Positions 1,294 through 7,339 of a DNA stretch of 7,339 nucleotides are shown here, one piece after another; positions within the stretch are counted from its first letter, which is position 1; every line of letters begins with the position of its first letter. A program made the position numbers and the translations under genes. The stretch is from contig JAGLYR010000295.1 in the NCBI GenBank assembly GCA_023132135.1, forward strand, positions 1-7,339. The letters are read 5' to 3'. This DNA comes from Candidatus Eiseniibacteriota bacterium. Its GTDB lineage: Bacteria > Arandabacterota > Arandabacteria > JAGLYR01. The notes under the pieces are model-generated. The model ran no database searches. It was not told the DNA's origin and was given only the letters and a program-made list of their open reading frames with translations.

Positions 1294-1610
1294 CCCACTT
1301 CCTCTGGATACACAAGAGAACGCGCGCTGTCTAACTGTGAGTATGTTGTTCCGTCCTCGCGGCCAATAACGTGACGGTAGAGAAACAGCAGCGCGCTGAG
1401 AGACGCTACCCCGATTGCTGCACCATGTCAAGAGGCGGTACCGACGCGGGTGCAAAGGTGGGTGTCGCCGGGAATAGCAAGGCGAGTGACCAAAGGCTTG
1501 CTTCTCTCCTGCTCTCGGTGCAGCGGACGGCAAGTTCGAAACCGGTGTCGTATCCGCAGAGTTCCCAATTTGGTAATATAATATTAGGTCACGATTTGGG
1601 AACAAACTTC
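1294..1610. other. Intergenic region between divergent genes
   Basis: I see no convincing gene here. The open frames on both strands have low-complexity, arginine-rich compositions. On the minus strand, a weak promoter candidate for the membrane-protein gene reads CATACT (complement of 1340-1345) with TTATTG 18 bp upstream (complement of 1364-1369); only the -10 is close to consensus. A 10-bp palindrome CAGCGCGCTG lies near 1388-1397, with no assigned role. The right end holds the palindromic, AT-rich control region listed separately. Confidence 0.5.
1561..1603. promoter_or_regulatory. Nested palindromes upstream of the higBA promoter (candidate operator)
   Basis: An outer inverted repeat, GTTCCCAA (1561-1568) and TTGGGAAC (1596-1603), encloses an inner AT-only palindrome TAATATAATATTA (1574-1586), perfect around its central base. 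The two centres are offset by about 2 bp. The block ends 7 bp before the -35 box. HigA-type antitoxins bind palindromes in their own promoter region, so this is a reasonable candidate operator, but the position is upstream of the -35 rather than over it. The AT-rich core could also act as an upstream promoter element. Confidence 0.45.
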
Positions 1611-1646
1611 TTGACAGACTTGCGACGGCTCGCTATACTGGGTTCA
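1611..1646 (+). promoter_or_regulatory. Sigma70 promoter of the toxin-antitoxin operon
   Basis: The -35 box is a perfect TTGACA (1611-1616), the spacer is exactly 17 bp, and the -10 box is TATACT (1634-1639), five of six consensus bases. Transcription would start at about 1645-1647, on the toxin ATG at 1646, so the mRNA is predicted to be leaderless or nearly so. No other promoter in the window is this close to consensus. Confidence 0.85.
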
Positions 1647-1930
1647 TGAGGGTTCTCGGCAAGGAACGGATTCACGAGGCTATCGCGAAACACGCGGACG
1701 CCGGCCCTCGACTTCGAGCATGGCTTGCTGAGGCAGAGGACGCGAAATGGACAAGCTCGAGGGATGTCAAACGCAGGTACCCATCTGTCAGCTTCCTTGG
1801 CGGGAATCGAGTTATCTTCAACATAGGCGGCAACAACTACCGGCTTGTGGCGAGCGCGGCGTACAACACGGATACGGTTCTCGTTGAGTGGTTCGGCACC
1901 CACGCGCAGTATTCGAAGAAGAGGTTCTAG
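1646..1930 (+). CDS. higB: HigB-type mRNA interferase toxin (PF09907-like, 94 aa)
   Basis: This is a small RelE-fold toxin of the E. coli HigB (YgjN) type, whose family members cleave mRNA at the ribosome and arrest translation. The 94 residues match the family's usual length. They show its landmarks in order: an N-terminal MRVLGKERIHEA strand and helix, a conserved Trp (W35) before the SSRDVKRRYPSVSFL segment, the signature FNIGGNNYRLVA (58-69), and the C-terminal GTHAQY (84-89) with His86 and Tyr89. The ATG at 1646 is used because homologues begin M-x-[VL]. No Shine-Dalgarno site precedes it and it coincides with the predicted transcription start. The toxin comes before the antitoxin, which is the characteristic higBA order. 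The TAG stop (1928-1930) overlaps the ribosome-binding site of the next gene, so the two are probably translationally coupled. Family assignment rests on motif recognition, not a search. Confidence 0.9.
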   Translation: MRVLGKERIHEAIAKHADAGPRLRAWLAEAEDAKWTSSRDVKRRYPSVSFLGGNRVIFNIGGNNYRLVASAAYNTDTVLVEWFGTHAQYSKKRF

Positions 1931-1938
1931 GAGGGGAC
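1929..1938 (+). promoter_or_regulatory. Strong ribosome-binding site of the antitoxin gene
   Basis: AGGAGG (1929-1934) overlaps the last two bases of the toxin stop codon and sits 4 bp before the ATG at 1939. It decides the antitoxin start: an in-frame ATG 51 bases upstream at 1888 lies inside the toxin gene and has no such site. Confidence 0.8.
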
Positions 1939-3156
1939 ATGGCCAAGGTGATTAAGAACAGAAGCGAGTACGAAGCGGCTCTGCGTGAAATGGAGACCCT
2001 TGTGTCGTCCGATCCACTGCCGAACACGGAAGATGGAGCAAGGCTGGAGCTCCTCGCCTTGCTGATCTCAACCTATGAAGATGAACGCTTTCCGGTGGCG
2101 AATCCGACCGCCGCTGAAGCCATACGGTTCCGAATGGAGCAACTTGGACTTACCCAACGAGATTTGGTCCCGTACATTGGAAGCCGAAGCCGTGTGTCTG
2201 AAGTGCTGAACGGCAAGCGCTCCCTCACGATGAAAATGGCGCGTGCCCTACATAGAGAACTGCGGATTCCGGCTGGGTCTCTCTTGCAGGAAGTGTCGAG
2301 TAGTCTCATGGGGGCTGAGGGGCCCTTGGAGTGGAGCAAGTTCCCAACTAGTGTGATGATCAAACGCAACTGGTTTCCTGATTTCCAGGGTCGGCCATCC
2401 GATGGAGCCGCACATGCTGAGGATCTGGTTGCGGGACTATTGAGGAGAGCCCGGGTGCCGGAGCTGCAGTCAGCGTTTTTGCGTCAACACGTTCGCTCCG
2501 GCTCGGAAATGGACAGATATGCCCTGTTGGCATGGTGGGCGCGGGCTGTCGAACTGGCGCGCGTTCAGCGACTGAGTGGCGTGTACCGGCCCGGAGCGAT
2601 AGACGACTCCTTCATGACTGATCTCGTTCGCCTGAGTTATCTCAGCGACGGTCCAAGACTCGCAAAGGAGTACCTCTCAAAGCACGGGATCCATCTGGTG
2701 ATTCTCGCTCATTTGCCGAGGACACATCTGGATGGTGCTGCTGCCCTGCTCGATGATGGCGCACCAGCCGTGATCCTGACGCTCAGGTATGATCGACTGG
2801 ACAACTTCTGGTTCTGCCTGTGCCACGAGCTGGGTCATATCGCCCTTCATCTACGTGAAGACAAAGAATCGCGCTACTTCGACGACCTTGATGTGCAGGG
2901 AGACTCGTCTGAAGTAGAGGCAGATCGCTTCGCGGAGAGGTCACTGATTCCGCCCAGAAGCTGGGGCAGGACAGCGGTGCGGCGGCAGTACAGTATTCAA
3001 GGCGTACGCGAGTACGCTAGTCGACTCAGAATCCATCCCGGCATCATCGCAGGCCAGATTCGCCGCGAGCAGAATAACTACCGCATTCTCTGGTCTCTGG
3101 TTGGAAACAAAGAGGTCCGGAAGCACTTTCCAGGCTTCGAGGCCGGCGTCGGCTAG
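1939..3156 (+). CDS. higA: HigA-type antitoxin fused to an ImmA/IrrE (M78) zinc metallopeptidase (405 aa)
   Basis: Residues 1-117 read as a complete HigA antitoxin of the COG5499 type. There is an N-terminal helical region (KNRSEYEAALREMETL through ISTYEDERFPV), then an XRE-like helix-turn-helix with EAIRFRMEQLGLTQRDLVPYIG (about 60-81) and the recognition-helix signature GSRSRVSEVLNGKRSLT (81-97). Ordinary HigA proteins end near here. This one continues through a linker (about 118-225) into an ImmA/IrrE-type domain. That domain has FWFCLCHELGHIALH with the HExxH zinc motif at 296-300 (catalytic Glu297), and then EADRFAERSLIP, whose Glu327 lies 27 residues after His300, where this family's third ligand is expected. 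ATG 1939 is chosen from its AGGAGG site. It is 8 bp downstream of the toxin gene in one operon. The expected roles are toxin neutralisation and repression of the promoter at 1611; the protease target is unknown and could be the antitoxin part itself (inference). Confidence 0.88.
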   Translation: MAKVIKNRSEYEAALREMETLVSSDPLPNTEDGARLELLALLISTYEDERFPVANPTAAEAIRFRMEQLGLTQRDLVPYIGSRSRVSEVLNGKRSLTMKMARALHRELRIPAGSLLQEVSSSLMGAEGPLEWSKFPTSVMIKRNWFPDFQGRPSDGAAHAEDLVAGLLRRARVPELQSAFLRQHVRSGSEMDRYALLAWWARAVELARVQRLSGVYRPGAIDDSFMTDLVRLSYLSDGPRLAKEYLSKHGIHLVILAHLPRTHLDGAAALLDDGAPAVILTLRYDRLDNFWFCLCHELGHIALHLREDKESRYFDDLDVQGDSSEVEADRFAERSLIPPRSWGRTAVRRQYSIQGVREYASRLRIHPGIIAGQIRREQNNYRILWSLVGNKEVRKHFPGFEAGVG

Positions 3157-3176: not shown

Positions 3177-3363
3177 TTAGGGCGCTTTGGGGTCAGGTCT
3201 TGCAATGACACATTCTGGGGTCTAACTCGTTGTTTTCTCAGATCTTCGCACCACCCGACCGACGGCGGTCCAGCGTACCCCGAAGAGATCTGTCAACAGC
3301 TGTTATTTCAACACTTGCGTCCGGTTTTGTTGCATTGCAAGACCTGACCCGAAAGCGCCCTAA
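3177..3363. mobile_element. 187-bp decayed transposon-like element (MITE/REP type) with 31-bp inverted repeats
   Basis: The left arm (3177-3207) and the reverse complement of the right arm (3333-3363) agree at 30 of 31 positions; the single mismatch is base 3189. The arms contain the motif GGGTCAGGTCTTGCAATG. From memory, this kind of GGTCAGGTCTTG terminus is common beside IS200/REP-associated transposase genes in environmental genomes; I could not check this. The interior holds no intact gene but has a relic of a transposase-like helix-turn-helix tail on the minus strand. Two shorter symmetries are also present: CAGATCTTCG (3240-3249) against CGAAGAGATCTG (3281-3292), and the perfect palindrome AACAGCTGTT (3295-3304). 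The element starts 20 bp after the antitoxin stop. Confidence 0.65.
3222..3299 (-). pseudogene. Relic of a helix-turn-helix C-terminal tail, probably of an IS200/REP-associated transposase
   Basis: Read on the minus strand, 25 codons ending in TAG (3222-3224) give LLTDLFGVRWTAVGRVVRR followed by SEKTTS. The pattern LF-G-V-x-x-T-A-V-x-R-x-V-R-R is a typical helix-turn-helix, like the DNA-binding tails found at the C-terminus of some Y1 (REP-associated tyrosine) transposases. A TAA stop lies in the same frame two codons upstream (CAG, then TAA), and no catalytic HUH domain is present. Only the end of a gene survives, between the inverted repeats. Chance similarity over 25 codons cannot be excluded. 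Confidence 0.4.
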
Positions 3364-3460: not shown

Positions 3461-4438
3461 TCACTCACCTATCCGTAGCCCTCCACTTCGACCACCGTCC
3501 ACTGGGAATGGCTCCGATATTCTCCGCCGTTTCCACCGCGACAGCTCCTTCATCTCCCTTACCCGCCGAAGCCCCTCCTCCGTCACGCCTGCTGCTCTCA
3601 CCACCCCTTTGCTCAAACCCCCCGCCAGATAGTCTAGCCCTATGTCGATCTTGCTGTAGCTCATCCCCAGCGCATACTCATCGCTAATCCCTCTCATCAT
3701 GTCCGGTGATGGCGCTTGCTGTCGAATCTCACCCGGCACCCCGAGGTACCGGGCAAGCTGTCGCACTTGCGTCTTGTACAGCCCAATCAGCGGCTGGTAT
3801 GGAAGATCATCCACTCCATCCTTCACGAACCAGCCTACCTCCCATTCGGACCGGTTGGCCCCTCCGAGCAGTAGCCAGTTCCGGGCTCTGGCCTTTGACT
3901 CCAACACCTCACGGCGATAGCGATGCCTGGCGTAGAACAACTCTTCTGCGTACCGGTTGACAAACCTGAGTACTGAGCCCCGAGGTCTGCGGTCTCCGAC
4001 CTTACCTCCCCCTGCTCGCAGCGACGACACAAACGGGGTCTCCCCGGCCATCAAGTGATACAATCTGTACATGAACCGGTTGATGAATGGTGACAGTCGT
4101 GTTATCCGCATCCCCCACGAAGTATAGATGCCCCCTTCCCTCCTGCCCGGTTCGATACTCTCAGTCTCCAGTTCGATTCCCAGCCAGTGCGCTACTTGTC
4201 CAGCATTGGATCCTTGACCTCGCTCACTGTCCCAATCGTAGAGATACATCGCATGAACAGAGCTCTCACCTAATGACCGTGTAGCCAGAGCCACAAGTAC
4301 GGCAGAATCGACCCCTCCGCTCAGCCCAGCCAGAACACCTCTCGCAGAATGCCGTGCGCAGAGGTGATGCAGGTACTCGGCCACAGCCTTAACCGCGCGT
4401 TCTTCATCGATCCTTAAGAGTGCACTTGCTGTTATCAT
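3461..4438 (-). CDS. NAD+ synthetase-family ATP pyrophosphatase (NadE-like, 325 aa)
   Basis: NadE adenylates nicotinic acid adenine dinucleotide and amidates it to NAD+ in the cytoplasm. The protein shows the N-type ATP pyrophosphatase loop GLSGGVDSAVLVALA (38-52, P-loop SGGVDS). A region matching the NadE core follows: ARHRYRREVL (170-179), LLLGGANRSE (189-198, compare the usual GTGNKSE), KDGVDDLPYQPLIGLYKTQVRQLARYLGVP (206-235) and a C-terminal DEYALGMSYSKIDIGLDYL (253-271), with basic residues near the end where NadE has a KR motif. No amidase domain is attached, so ammonia or a separate glutaminase would supply nitrogen. Residues about 101-165 look like an insertion compared with standard NadE. 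The frame stays open to a TTG at 4459 inside a repeat, but ATG 4438 is preferred, though its ribosome site is weak (GGAG 14 nt away). Another ATP pyrophosphatase amidation or thiolation role remains possible. Confidence 0.75.
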   Translation of the reverse strand: MITASALLRIDEERAVKAVAEYLHHLCARHSARGVLAGLSGGVDSAVLVALATRSLGESSVHAMYLYDWDSERGQGSNAGQVAHWLGIELETESIEPGRREGGIYTSWGMRITRLSPFINRFMYRLYHLMAGETPFVSSLRAGGGKVGDRRPRGSVLRFVNRYAEELFYARHRYRREVLESKARARNWLLLGGANRSEWEVGWFVKDGVDDLPYQPLIGLYKTQVRQLARYLGVPGEIRQQAPSPDMMRGISDEYALGMSYSKIDIGLDYLAGGLSKGVVRAAGVTEEGLRRVREMKELSRWKRRRISEPFPVDGGRSGGLRIGE

Positions 4439-4458
4439 CACGCTTCTGAAAAGCTCCA

Positions 4459-4478
4459 ACCACGAAGCACACGAAGGA
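4459..4478. repeat. Short CACGAAG tandem motif between the ATPase and NadE-like genes
   Basis: CACGAAG occurs at 4461-4467 and again at 4470-4476, a 9-bp period, within the 45-bp gap between the two minus-strand genes. From memory, very similar ACCACGAAG..CACGAAG strings recur in intergenic DNA of many environmental bacteria; their function is unknown to me. The motif overlaps the upstream TTG alternative start of the NadE-like frame, which argues against that start. Confidence 0.35.
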
Positions 4479-4483
4479 GTTCT

Positions 4484-5788
4484 TCACTCCGGCAAGTTGA
4501 GGAGGAAGCGCCAGGCTGACACGACCTGTATCTTCCCACAGGCGACTTGGATCTCTTCCTCCTGGTTCCGCGTCACAATCGTGCCGGACTCCAACCCAAG
4601 CTCTGCCATAGCTTCGCTCAAAGCCGCGACTTCCCGTTTCCTGGTCTGTGGCTCAGCCATCGATTCGCAAACCTGGACCAGCAATCGGGTGCAATCCCGC
4701 AATTGTGCGACGAAGTCCACCTCCAGCCCGCCTTTCGTCTTGCAGTAATAGATGTCGGGCGAGATGCGCCGAAGCGCTGTGAACACGAGATTCTCCAGCA
4801 GATGCCCTGAGTTGACGAGAATGCCCGAGGCCACGGACGTGACCAGGGCATGATCGACGCAGTAGATCTTCTTCGGGTTGGTCTTGCTGCGGGCGAGGGA
4901 CGCGTCGAATATCCGCACGGTAAACAGGAAATAGGCATCTTCGAACCACTCCAGGTAGTCCGACACGGCTGACTTGGGAGCTTTGTGGCCCAATGATTTC
5001 AGATAGCCGGTGAGGCTGTTGACTGAATAGAGCGAGGCGGTGTTGTCTACCAGCCGGTGTGCGAGGTCTGTCAAGGCTCTGGGATGCGAAACGTCATGGC
5101 GCTCGATCAGGTCTCGGAACAGGACGGCGCGGAAGTATTCCTGGTGGATCCTGGTTCGCAGGTGCCGGTCAAGACCGGCTACTTCGGGAAAGCCTCCGGT
5201 CTCCCAGTACCTATCGAATACCTTCTGCACGAGAAGCCGCTTTTTTGTCGACAAGGGGCCCGCGCTTTCCGTCCCCTTGTAGTCCAGGTATTCTCTGAAA
5301 GAAAACGGAAACAGCTCCCACGACAACGCCCGGCCGCGCATCTGCGTGGCGATCTCCTTGGAGAGCATCTGGGCCGAGGAGCCTGTAAGAAAAACTTCGC
5401 ACTGTTCGGTCCGCATCAGGCGGTCCACAAAAGGTTCCCATCCTTCGACCGCCTGGATTTCATCGAAAAAGCAATAGACCGTCTCGGCGTTTTTCTTCTC
5501 CGGGTAGAGAGAGTAATAGGCCTCGGAGATCAGGCTGAGACCTTCCTGCTTCAGGTTATGGAGACGGTCATCGAAGAAGTTGACGTACAGAATGTTCTCG
5601 CGCGAGACGCCCTCATCCAGAAGCCGCGCGATGACCTGGAACAGATAGGTCGATTTCCCGCTTCGGCGCACCCCGATACAGACGGTGGCCTTGCCGGGGA
5701 CCGCCTCGACCTGCAAGCGCCTGGGCACCCCGGTTTCCAAACTGATTTCCTGGAAATCCAGAATGATCGATTTGATGGTTTCTATCAT
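4484..5788 (-). CDS. AAA+ ATPase with DUF4143 C-terminal domain (COG1373 type, 434 aa)
   Basis: The N-terminal half is an AAA_14-type ATPase domain: Walker A GVRRSGKST (39-47), Walker B VYCFFDE (104-110) followed by IQAVEGWE, sensor-1-like LTGSSAQML (134-142), and the RGRALSWELFPFSFREYL segment (151-168) that marks this family. The C-terminal half matches DUF4143. It has a winged-helix-like region (ALTDLAHRLVDNTASLYSVNSLTGYL, then the SDYLEWFEDAYFLF stretch to about 290) and a nuclease-like core with HLLENLVFTAL (329-339), GGLEVDFV (353-360) and LLVQVCE (369-375). The E-x-D pair resembles the PD-(D/E)xK fold, but the final Lys is not evident. The length is typical. The cellular role of these proteins is not established. 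The ATG at 5788 has AAGGA 6 nt upstream and a promoter about 50 bp upstream. The NadE-like gene follows 45 bp downstream on the same strand. Confidence 0.88.
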   Translation of the reverse strand: MIETIKSIILDFQEISLETGVPRRLQVEAVPGKATVCIGVRRSGKSTYLFQVIARLLDEGVSRENILYVNFFDDRLHNLKQEGLSLISEAYYSLYPEKKNAETVYCFFDEIQAVEGWEPFVDRLMRTEQCEVFLTGSSAQMLSKEIATQMRGRALSWELFPFSFREYLDYKGTESAGPLSTKKRLLVQKVFDRYWETGGFPEVAGLDRHLRTRIHQEYFRAVLFRDLIERHDVSHPRALTDLAHRLVDNTASLYSVNSLTGYLKSLGHKAPKSAVSDYLEWFEDAYFLFTVRIFDASLARSKTNPKKIYCVDHALVTSVASGILVNSGHLLENLVFTALRRISPDIYYCKTKGGLEVDFVAQLRDCTRLLVQVCESMAEPQTRKREVAALSEAMAELGLESGTIVTRNQEEEIQVACGKIQVVSAWRFLLNLPE

Positions 5789-6005: not shown

Positions 6006-6034
6006 TACTCACGAGTGGAGGAATTCGATATACT
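6006..6034 (+). promoter_or_regulatory. Possible promoter of typA
   Basis: TATACT (6029-6034) is a good -10 box. The hexamer 17 bp upstream (TACTCA, 6006-6011) matches the -35 consensus at only three positions. The leader would be about 70 nt. Confidence 0.3.
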
Positions 6035-6110
6035 AATACATTCGGACTTCCCATTGTCTCCGTACCAAGGTGGACTCGGACCGTGGGGACTTTTTGGAGT
6101 GAATGAAACC

Positions 6111-7339
6111 ATGGCGAAACCGGCAAAAGATCACCCTGTTCCATTGATCCGGCACGACCGGCGGGCGTTGGCCATCGTCGCCCATGTCGACCACGGGAAG
6201 ACGACGCTCATCGATGCATTGCTCAAGCAGACCGGGACGTTCCGGGAGGGCCAAGAGGTCCAGGAATGCGTTCTGGACTCGGGCGAGCTGGAGCGCGAAC
6301 GGGGCATCACGATTCTGTCCAAGAACACGGCGATCCGCTACAAGGGTACGGTGATCAATATCGTCGACACGCCGGGCCATCGGGACTTCGGTTCGGAGGT
6401 GGAGCGTATTGTCTCAATGGTGGAGGGTATTCTCCTTCTCGTCGACGCAGCCGAAGGCCCCCTCCCGCAGACGCGGTTTGTACTGAAGAAGGCGATCGAG
6501 GGCAACAAGAAGGTCATCGTCCTCATCAACAAAATCGATCGCGCGGATGCACGAACGATGGAAGTCGAGGAGGAGATCCAAGACCTTTTCCTCTCGCTCG
6601 CCTCATGTGAAGACGATCTCGACTTTCTGGTGTTCTACGGCTCCGGCCGCAATGGCTTTGTCTCTACCGACCCGGACGCGACCTCCGGGAGCCTTGTACC
6701 GCTTCTTGACGCGATCCTCGAGCAGATTCCTGCGCCCATCATTACGGACGATCACTTCAAGATGCTCGTCGCAAACATTGAATATTCGGACTACCTCGGC
6801 CGGCTGGCGGTCGGGCGTATCCATTCGGGGAACCTGTCCCACGCGCTGGAGATTGGTGCGGTGTTCCCCGACGGGCGAATCGCGCAACGGGGAAAAGCGG
6901 GTAAAATCTTTCTCTTCCAGGGACTCGACAGGATCGAGGTCAAGGAAGCTTCGGCGGGCGACATCGTGGTGATCTCCGGGTTTCCGGAGGTCGAGATAGG
7001 GCAGACGATTCTCAGCCTCGAGGATCCGGCGCCGCTGTTGGGAATCCGCATCGAAGAGCCTACGCTCTCTATGGAGTTCCGGGTCAACGATTCCCCCATG
7101 TCCGGACAGTCGGGAAAGTACATGACGAGCCGCCATCTCAGTAGGCGGCTGGAGAGGGAGCTCGAGCGGAACGTCGGCATTCGACTGGAGAGAACCGCTT
7201 CACCCAACGCCTTCCGGGTGTTGGGCCGAGGGGAGCTCTCTCTCGCCATTCTCGCCGAGACGATGAGGCGCGAAGGGTTCGAGATAGCGCTCGGGCGTCC
7301 CGAAGTCATCCTTCGCAGGGACGAGGGCGGACGTTTGCT
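6111..7339 (+). CDS. typA: Translational GTPase TypA/BipA, N-terminal 409 residues (truncated by window edge)
   Basis: TypA/BipA is a ribosome-binding GTPase related to EF-G that supports ribosome assembly and stress or cold adaptation. The frame is open from ATG 6111 to the right edge; about two thirds of the usual length of roughly 610 residues is present. Visible motifs are G1 AHVDHGKT (24-31), G2 RGIT (64-67) inside [11 protein letters not shown]3 DTPGH (86-90) and G4 NKID (140-143). Domain II begins near [24 protein letters not shown] (217-240). The family-specific [15 protein letters not shown] (315-329) is followed by [18 protein letters not shown] (372-389). Some positions deviate from the common form. 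The G5-region motif reads YGSGRNG rather than the usual SA(K/R), G3 is followed by RDFGS rather than ADFGG, and GRGEL is followed by S rather than H. GGAG lies 11 nt before the ATG, and an ATG at 6103 is out of frame and soon stops. Confidence 0.95.

Follow-up and report, generated by a model that had tools for sequence, protein, structure and literature searches.

It has long been asked how toxin-antitoxin (TA) modules become activated when a phage infects the cell, and an antitoxin with a built-in protease would be a direct, testable answer, because the release switch would be part of the antitoxin itself. We have analyzed a locus that raises this possibility, located in a window that is one whole contig (7,339 nucleotides, 7.3 kb) of a Candidatus Eiseniibacteriota bacterium. 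The original prediction was that a HigA antitoxin is joined here to an M78 (ImmA/IrrE type) protease in a single 405-residue frame following a HigB toxin, and that a signal activates the protease, which cuts the antitoxin and frees the toxin. The pair is organized as follows:

1646-1930, forward strand: HigB-family (RelE-like) toxin, 94 aa, equivalent to PD-Lambda-2_A (Pfam HigB_toxin, PADLOC)
1930-1936, forward strand: Shine-Dalgarno sequence GGAGGGG of the fusion gene, anti-SD duplex of -10.7 kcal/mol
1939-3156, forward strand: HigA-M78 fusion, 405 aa, equivalent to PD-Lambda-2_B (PADLOC, Pfam HTH_3 and Peptidase_M78, AlphaFold fold matches)
1939-2289, forward strand: HigA domain, residues 1-117, with the toxin-binding N-terminal part at about 1-57 and the HTH at about 58-117 (fold alignment, profile match)
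2290-2331, forward strand: flexible linker, residues 118-131 (low pLDDT, poorly conserved columns)
2332-3153, forward strand: M78 (ImmA/IrrE/CapP-like) protease module, residues 132-405, with a small C-terminal HTH at about 353-388 (domain model)
2824-2838, forward strand: HExxH catalytic motif HELGH, residues 296-300 (88/88 homologues)
2911-2913, forward strand: Glu325, third metal ligand by homology (88/88 homologues, His+29 as in VapB52)

The fusion of the two domains was confirmed by Pfam, phmmer and an AlphaFold model. The frame at 1939-3156 translates into 405 amino acids and a stop codon, and starts 8 nt after the stop codon of the toxin. In Pfam, HTH_3 was found at residues 62-112 (E 3e-6) and Peptidase_M78 (PF06114) at residues 275-354 (E 4e-6). 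Both matches exceed the curated cut-offs, so that the expected M78 match for the C-terminal half was obtained; a search of NCBIfam gave sub-threshold matches only. The PADLOC model PD-Lambda-2_B covered residues 2-398 with an E value of 4.5e-133. An artefact of chance or frame can be ruled out by these curated Pfam matches, the 88 aligned homologues and the AlphaFold model. We also rejected a longer frame of 422 aa beginning with a GTG at 1888, since the homologues begin where Met1939 lies, the added stretch would overlap the toxin and the Shine-Dalgarno sequence is found at 1930-1936.

The N-terminal part is a complete HigA. Specifically, residues 5-108 matched E. coli and Shigella HigA in phmmer (5ycl, 5ifg; E about 9e-8) and the profile match to 5ycl reached an E value of 7.6e-15. 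The full-length AlphaFold model was built on 77 homologues and had a pLDDT of 89.6; its residues 4-117 aligned by VIA-align to E. coli HigA (6kmq_B) with a Z of 9.9 over 108 positions and 38% identity. Both the toxin-binding N-terminal part and the HTH are present, as in a HigBA antitoxin. The gene in front belongs to Pfam HigB_toxin (PF09907, E 1.8e-26) and matches PADLOC PD-Lambda-2_A over residues 1-94 of its 94 (2.3e-37). Its residues W26, W35, F58, N63, R66, T85, H86 and Y89 were each kept in 78 or more of the 83 homologues. The HigBA modules of E. coli (6kmq, 5ifg) and Shigella (5ycl) share with the window the toxin-first operon, the HigB_toxin family and the HigA fold of residues 1-117, but they have no protease domain. 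A close relative of the HigA part that also lacks the M78 domain is found in phage D6 (119 aa, 48% identity over residues 3-116).

For the other half, residues 219-390 of the full-length model aligned to the M78 protease CapP (Z 8.3, 156 positions). When residues 132-405 were modelled alone (pLDDT 92.2), the best fold matches were CapP (Z 8.4), IrrE (3dte and 3dti, 5.7 and 5.5) and the ssDNA-bound PprI (8sln, 5.2). The model thus supports a CapP/IrrE fold for the protease half; the Z values alone are borderline, and the sequence motifs add backing. The linker between both halves fell below a pLDDT of 50 at residues 120-127.

The predicted HExxH at residues 296-300 was present, with H296, E297 and H300 in 88/88 homologues. 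The downstream ligand had been placed at Glu327, where only 59 of the 88 sequences have a Glu, while position 325 is a Glu in all of them. In the M. tuberculosis antitoxin VapB52, solved with zinc, the ligands are H216, H220 and E245, the last one at His+29 (PMC13273310). Glu325 aligns with E245 and has the same His+29 spacing and, because of this and its full conservation, we assign the third metal ligand by homology to Glu325. HigA plus M78 within a higBA operon was a correct interpretation; the predicted Glu327 should be read as Glu325. The PDB chain 9vzy, which is probably VapB52 judging by its length and motif position, gave a weak profile match to the fusion (E 0.035) that also puts Glu325 on E245; VapB52 was absent from the VIA match list of the protease domain. 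The fusion has therefore the HExxH and the downstream Glu of M78 peptidases. Actually, H296, E297, H300, H304, D315 and E325 were invariant over the 88 homologues and many other residues around the active site were invariant too. The preservation of HExxH and Glu in 88/88 sequences indicates that catalysis is under selection.

CapP and VapB52 (at C229) are kept in check by a cysteine switch, but the fusion has no Cys between H300 and E325. Among 77 homologues, 19 have any Cys in this loop and none at a conserved column, so that the latch must differ from that of CapP and VapB52; D315 lies in this same loop. As for the cleavage site, we considered the FR motif that is cut in VapB52. F64-R65 is kept in the family (76/77 and 77/77), but it is part of the first HTH helix, and the HigA of phage D6, which has no protease, carries it as well; for these reasons we rejected it as a cleavage site.

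The expression signals ahead of the toxin gene were the following:

1562-1576, forward strand: putative operator palindrome TTCCCAATTTGGTAA, with one mismatch to TTCCCANNNTGGGAA (0.01 expected in the window)
1598-1603, forward strand: second operator half-site GGGAAC, conserved in homologous promoters
1611-1639, forward strand: sigma-70 type promoter TTGACA-17-TATACT (11/12 consensus match)

We found TTCCC-N5-GGGAA, with up to one mismatch, in 63 of 83 homologous promoters against 0.6% of control stretches, a count that is inflated by kinship among the loci, yet the set spans phyla. It is located mostly 48-60 nt upstream of the toxin start. GGGAAC or its complement appeared in 65/83 of the promoters and in 5% of the control stretches. 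On this sequence evidence the pair would have the autoregulatory operator of a HigBA module; no paper describing a TTCCC-N5-GGGAA operator was found in the literature. The immunity region of Enterobacteria phage ST2-8624 contains an unannotated HigB and a 218-aa HigA-like protein without M78, and carries two copies of this same palindrome.

The -10 box of the window promoter ends 6 nt upstream of the toxin ATG (1646), which suggests a leaderless toxin mRNA with its ATG near the expected transcription start. In nine of the related loci the annotated toxin ATG coincides with the end of a good -10 box; transcripts would then begin within the ORF, and translation of those toxins may really start further in. 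The anti-SD duplex of the fusion gene (-10.7 kcal/mol) is much stronger than that upstream of the toxin (-2.0 kcal/mol), and the same difference was found between the medians over 82 pairs (-7.1 and -4.25 kcal/mol, paired Wilcoxon p 1.6e-7). A weak toxin and a strong fusion Shine-Dalgarno would fit, as expected, an excess of antitoxin.

There is prior evidence of similar genes. Fusions of Xre and M78 (COG2856) next to RelE and PIN toxins were reported by (Makarova et al., 2009), with the proposal that the Xre repressor or the antitoxin is cut by the protease (PMC2701414). This class has the same architecture and proposed mechanism as the window pair, but it is a broad class defined by computational analysis, with the mechanism as a proposal. 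The release mechanism of the original prediction is an independent rediscovery of this proposal. Besides, PADLOC already contains the family, so that the caveat that antitoxin-M78 fusions may exist in databases was borne out on both counts. The nearest described system is PD-lambda-2 (Vassallo et al., 2022), which came out of a functional selection and gives E. coli protection against phage lambda-vir through abortive infection; overexpression of its fusion protein B alone was toxic, the HigB-like A neutralised it, and a third gene of the operon, C (phage P4 beta-like), was required for defence in E. coli (PMC9519451). The window pair has the same A (HigB-like) and B (HigA HTH plus peptidase), in the same order and with full-length HMM matches, but no gene C. 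In the window, B is not followed by a codirectional gene, and a search of its own genome (96% complete) found no match to PDLC03983, one of the three C models of PADLOC, or to Pfam Beta_protein (PF14350), which covers the same family. We have therefore discarded a complete PD-lambda-2; by its sequence, the pair is the A+B core of this already described family, without gene C.

A precedent for the mechanism is VapB52/VapC52 (Rv2514c-Rv2515c), also an M78-fused antitoxin beside a ribonuclease toxin, with HExxH and a Glu at His+29. In vitro, ssDNA triggers the self-cleavage of VapB52 and the HEXXH mutant shows no cleavage (2026; PMC13273310). It differs from the window pair in that the toxin is a PIN protein (VapC) and not HigB, and in that its toxin-binding N-terminus is not HigA. 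PprI and CapP, too, are proteases activated by ssDNA, and their substrates are HTH repressors (PMC10904395; PMC13373217). CapH/CapP, IrrE(PprI)/DdrO and ImmA/ImmR resemble the fusion in combining an M78 protease with an HTH, and CapP, IrrE and PprI are the best folds for its C-terminal half, but in these systems repressor and protease are separate genes with no toxin partner.

We searched the GTDB genomes with an alignment and obtained at least 527 relatives, the best 80 of which were examined and span many phyla; none exceeded 55% identity to the window protein. A HigB-like gene was detectable at 84 of the 89 loci examined, which are the closest relatives of the window protein and no random sample. 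In a phylum-wide search of eight genomes the sole match was the window itself, and in the tree the protein groups with two Candidatus Eisenbacteria proteins (support 99/94). Full-length relatives are also present on plasmids. In viral contigs, a search with the single sequence found no close relatives, while the alignment gave 109 matches, about 20 of them near full length; 16 of the 19 near-full-length ones with neighbours examined had a HigB-like gene beside them. At the 75 loci with 600 nt or more downstream, B was followed by a beta-like gene in 4, by hsdR in 9, by another close codirectional ORF in 14 and by none in 48. The two-gene HigB/HigA-M78 pair is thus widespread and nearly always without gene C. 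Excepting one divergent protein from a Sinorhizobium meliloti plasmid, the B proteins that come with a beta-like gene are all found in a single five-member group with good support, which does not include the window protein. The distribution of the pair, the rarity of gene C, the conserved operator, the linkage to hsdR, the lack of the cysteine switch and the S. meliloti locus described below are what the present analysis adds. The two-gene form is far commoner than the three-gene PD-lambda-2 under which it is now annotated and, the pair being mostly without gene C, defence-finding tools that require it will miss most members; the conserved operator is a simple handle to find and assay them. 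In the S. meliloti plasmid (L008:3265-5002), the HTH-M78 relative has a DUF6932 gene upstream replacing HigB and a beta-like C downstream. The toxin part may be exchangeable, and this locus is a possible toxin swap.

What, then, would the protease do? We give a probability of roughly one half to a release switch, that is, a type II TA module of HigBA descent whose antitoxin carries an M78 metalloprotease of its own as a permanent fusion, and in which a signal frees HigB. In the resting cell the HigA part would bind HigB and repress the promoter through TTCCC-N5-GGGAA, with the protease kept inactive. The trigger would most likely be ssDNA produced by DNA damage or by a replicating phage, with the C-terminal M78/HTH module as its sensor in the manner of CapP and PprI. 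The activated protease would then cut the HigA part, in cis or in trans, the operon would be derepressed and the freed HigB would stop translation, resulting in abortive infection. The domains, the conserved catalytic residues, the operator, and the gene pair with its distribution are what we have shown, and the ssDNA trigger, the self-cleavage, the activity of the toxin and the role of the window pair in phage defence are what we infer here. In support of the release switch are the presence of a HigA fold and a CapP-like M78 fold in a single protein, the invariant catalytic set and the activation of CapP, PprI and VapB52 by ssDNA. The abortive infection by PD-lambda-2, the preserved toxin core, the operator, the Shine-Dalgarno contrast and the relatives on plasmids and viral contigs support it as well. 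Against the release switch, the linker at 118-131 lies past the complete HigA and cleavage there alone would leave it able to bind HigB, the cysteine switch of CapP and VapB52 is absent, and the gene C that PD-lambda-2 needs in E. coli is missing. We also saw no link of this copy to phage, its contig having no recognised defence gene other than the pair. Besides, the toxicity of PD-lambda-2 B alone and its rescue by A are not predicted by a simple release switch.

This last point argues for an inverted polarity, in which HigA-M78 would be the killer, its protease attacking some protein of the host or of the phage, and the HigB-like partner would mainly restrain it. The invariant catalytic residues and the fact that A accompanies nearly every B would fit as well. 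We consider it unlikely, if worth keeping in mind, because the strong conservation of the HigB core would be needless for a mere inhibitor, A has the weaker Shine-Dalgarno although an inhibitor required in excess should have the stronger one, and the toxin-binding and HTH regions of HigA are fully retained. A doubtful extension is a TA of reversed or double polarity, with the M78 domain as a growth-stopping effector latched by another element (Asp315 would be a candidate) and by the HigB-like partner; the two-gene unit would be the true PD-lambda-2 core and gene C a late clade-specific addition.

Regulation is another reading that we find improbable as the main role: the protease would cut the HigA repressor, as happens with CapH and DdrO, derepressing the operon and linked genes such as hsdR, and toxin release would be secondary. 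CapH/CapP and PprI/DdrO do act in this way, and the conserved operator adjoins the toxin start. In addition, the hsdR of a type I restriction system comes directly after B in 10 loci (L019, L021, L031, L033, L034, L036, L052, L056, L067 and L073), mostly of one clade and in two separate parts of the tree. Nevertheless, the 48 of 75 loci with no gene close behind would often leave little to derepress but the pair itself, and the toxin is nearly always present. Finally, the phage D6 HigA would be compatible with an ordinary HigBA module in which M78 is a passive appendage, but HExxH and Glu325 in 88/88 homologues and the many invariant active-site residues make this very improbable.

A protein that combines a rhodanese domain with an AAA-like region is found close after B at two of the related loci (L048:6226-7242 and L050:2613-3656), which carry the labels of different phyla; the two proteins are 58% identical. 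In the window, we have seen no link to the pair in the remaining three genes:

3461-4459, reverse strand: NAD synthase-like protein (profile matches)
4484-5788, reverse strand: AAA_14/DUF4143 ATPase (profile matches)
6033-7339, forward strand: translation GTPase of EF-Tu/EF-G type (TypA/BipA-like), cut by the contig end (profile matches)

Elsewhere in the same genome, a 299-aa frame gave another, weak match to M78 (G000:C207:6368-6466). Located right after the fusion gene, at 3177-3363, there is a palindromic repeat with 36-nt arms that are 92% complementary, plus another copy, of 22 nt, of one of the arms. About 20 related stretches were found elsewhere in the genome, indicating that it is probably a MITE or REP-like element.
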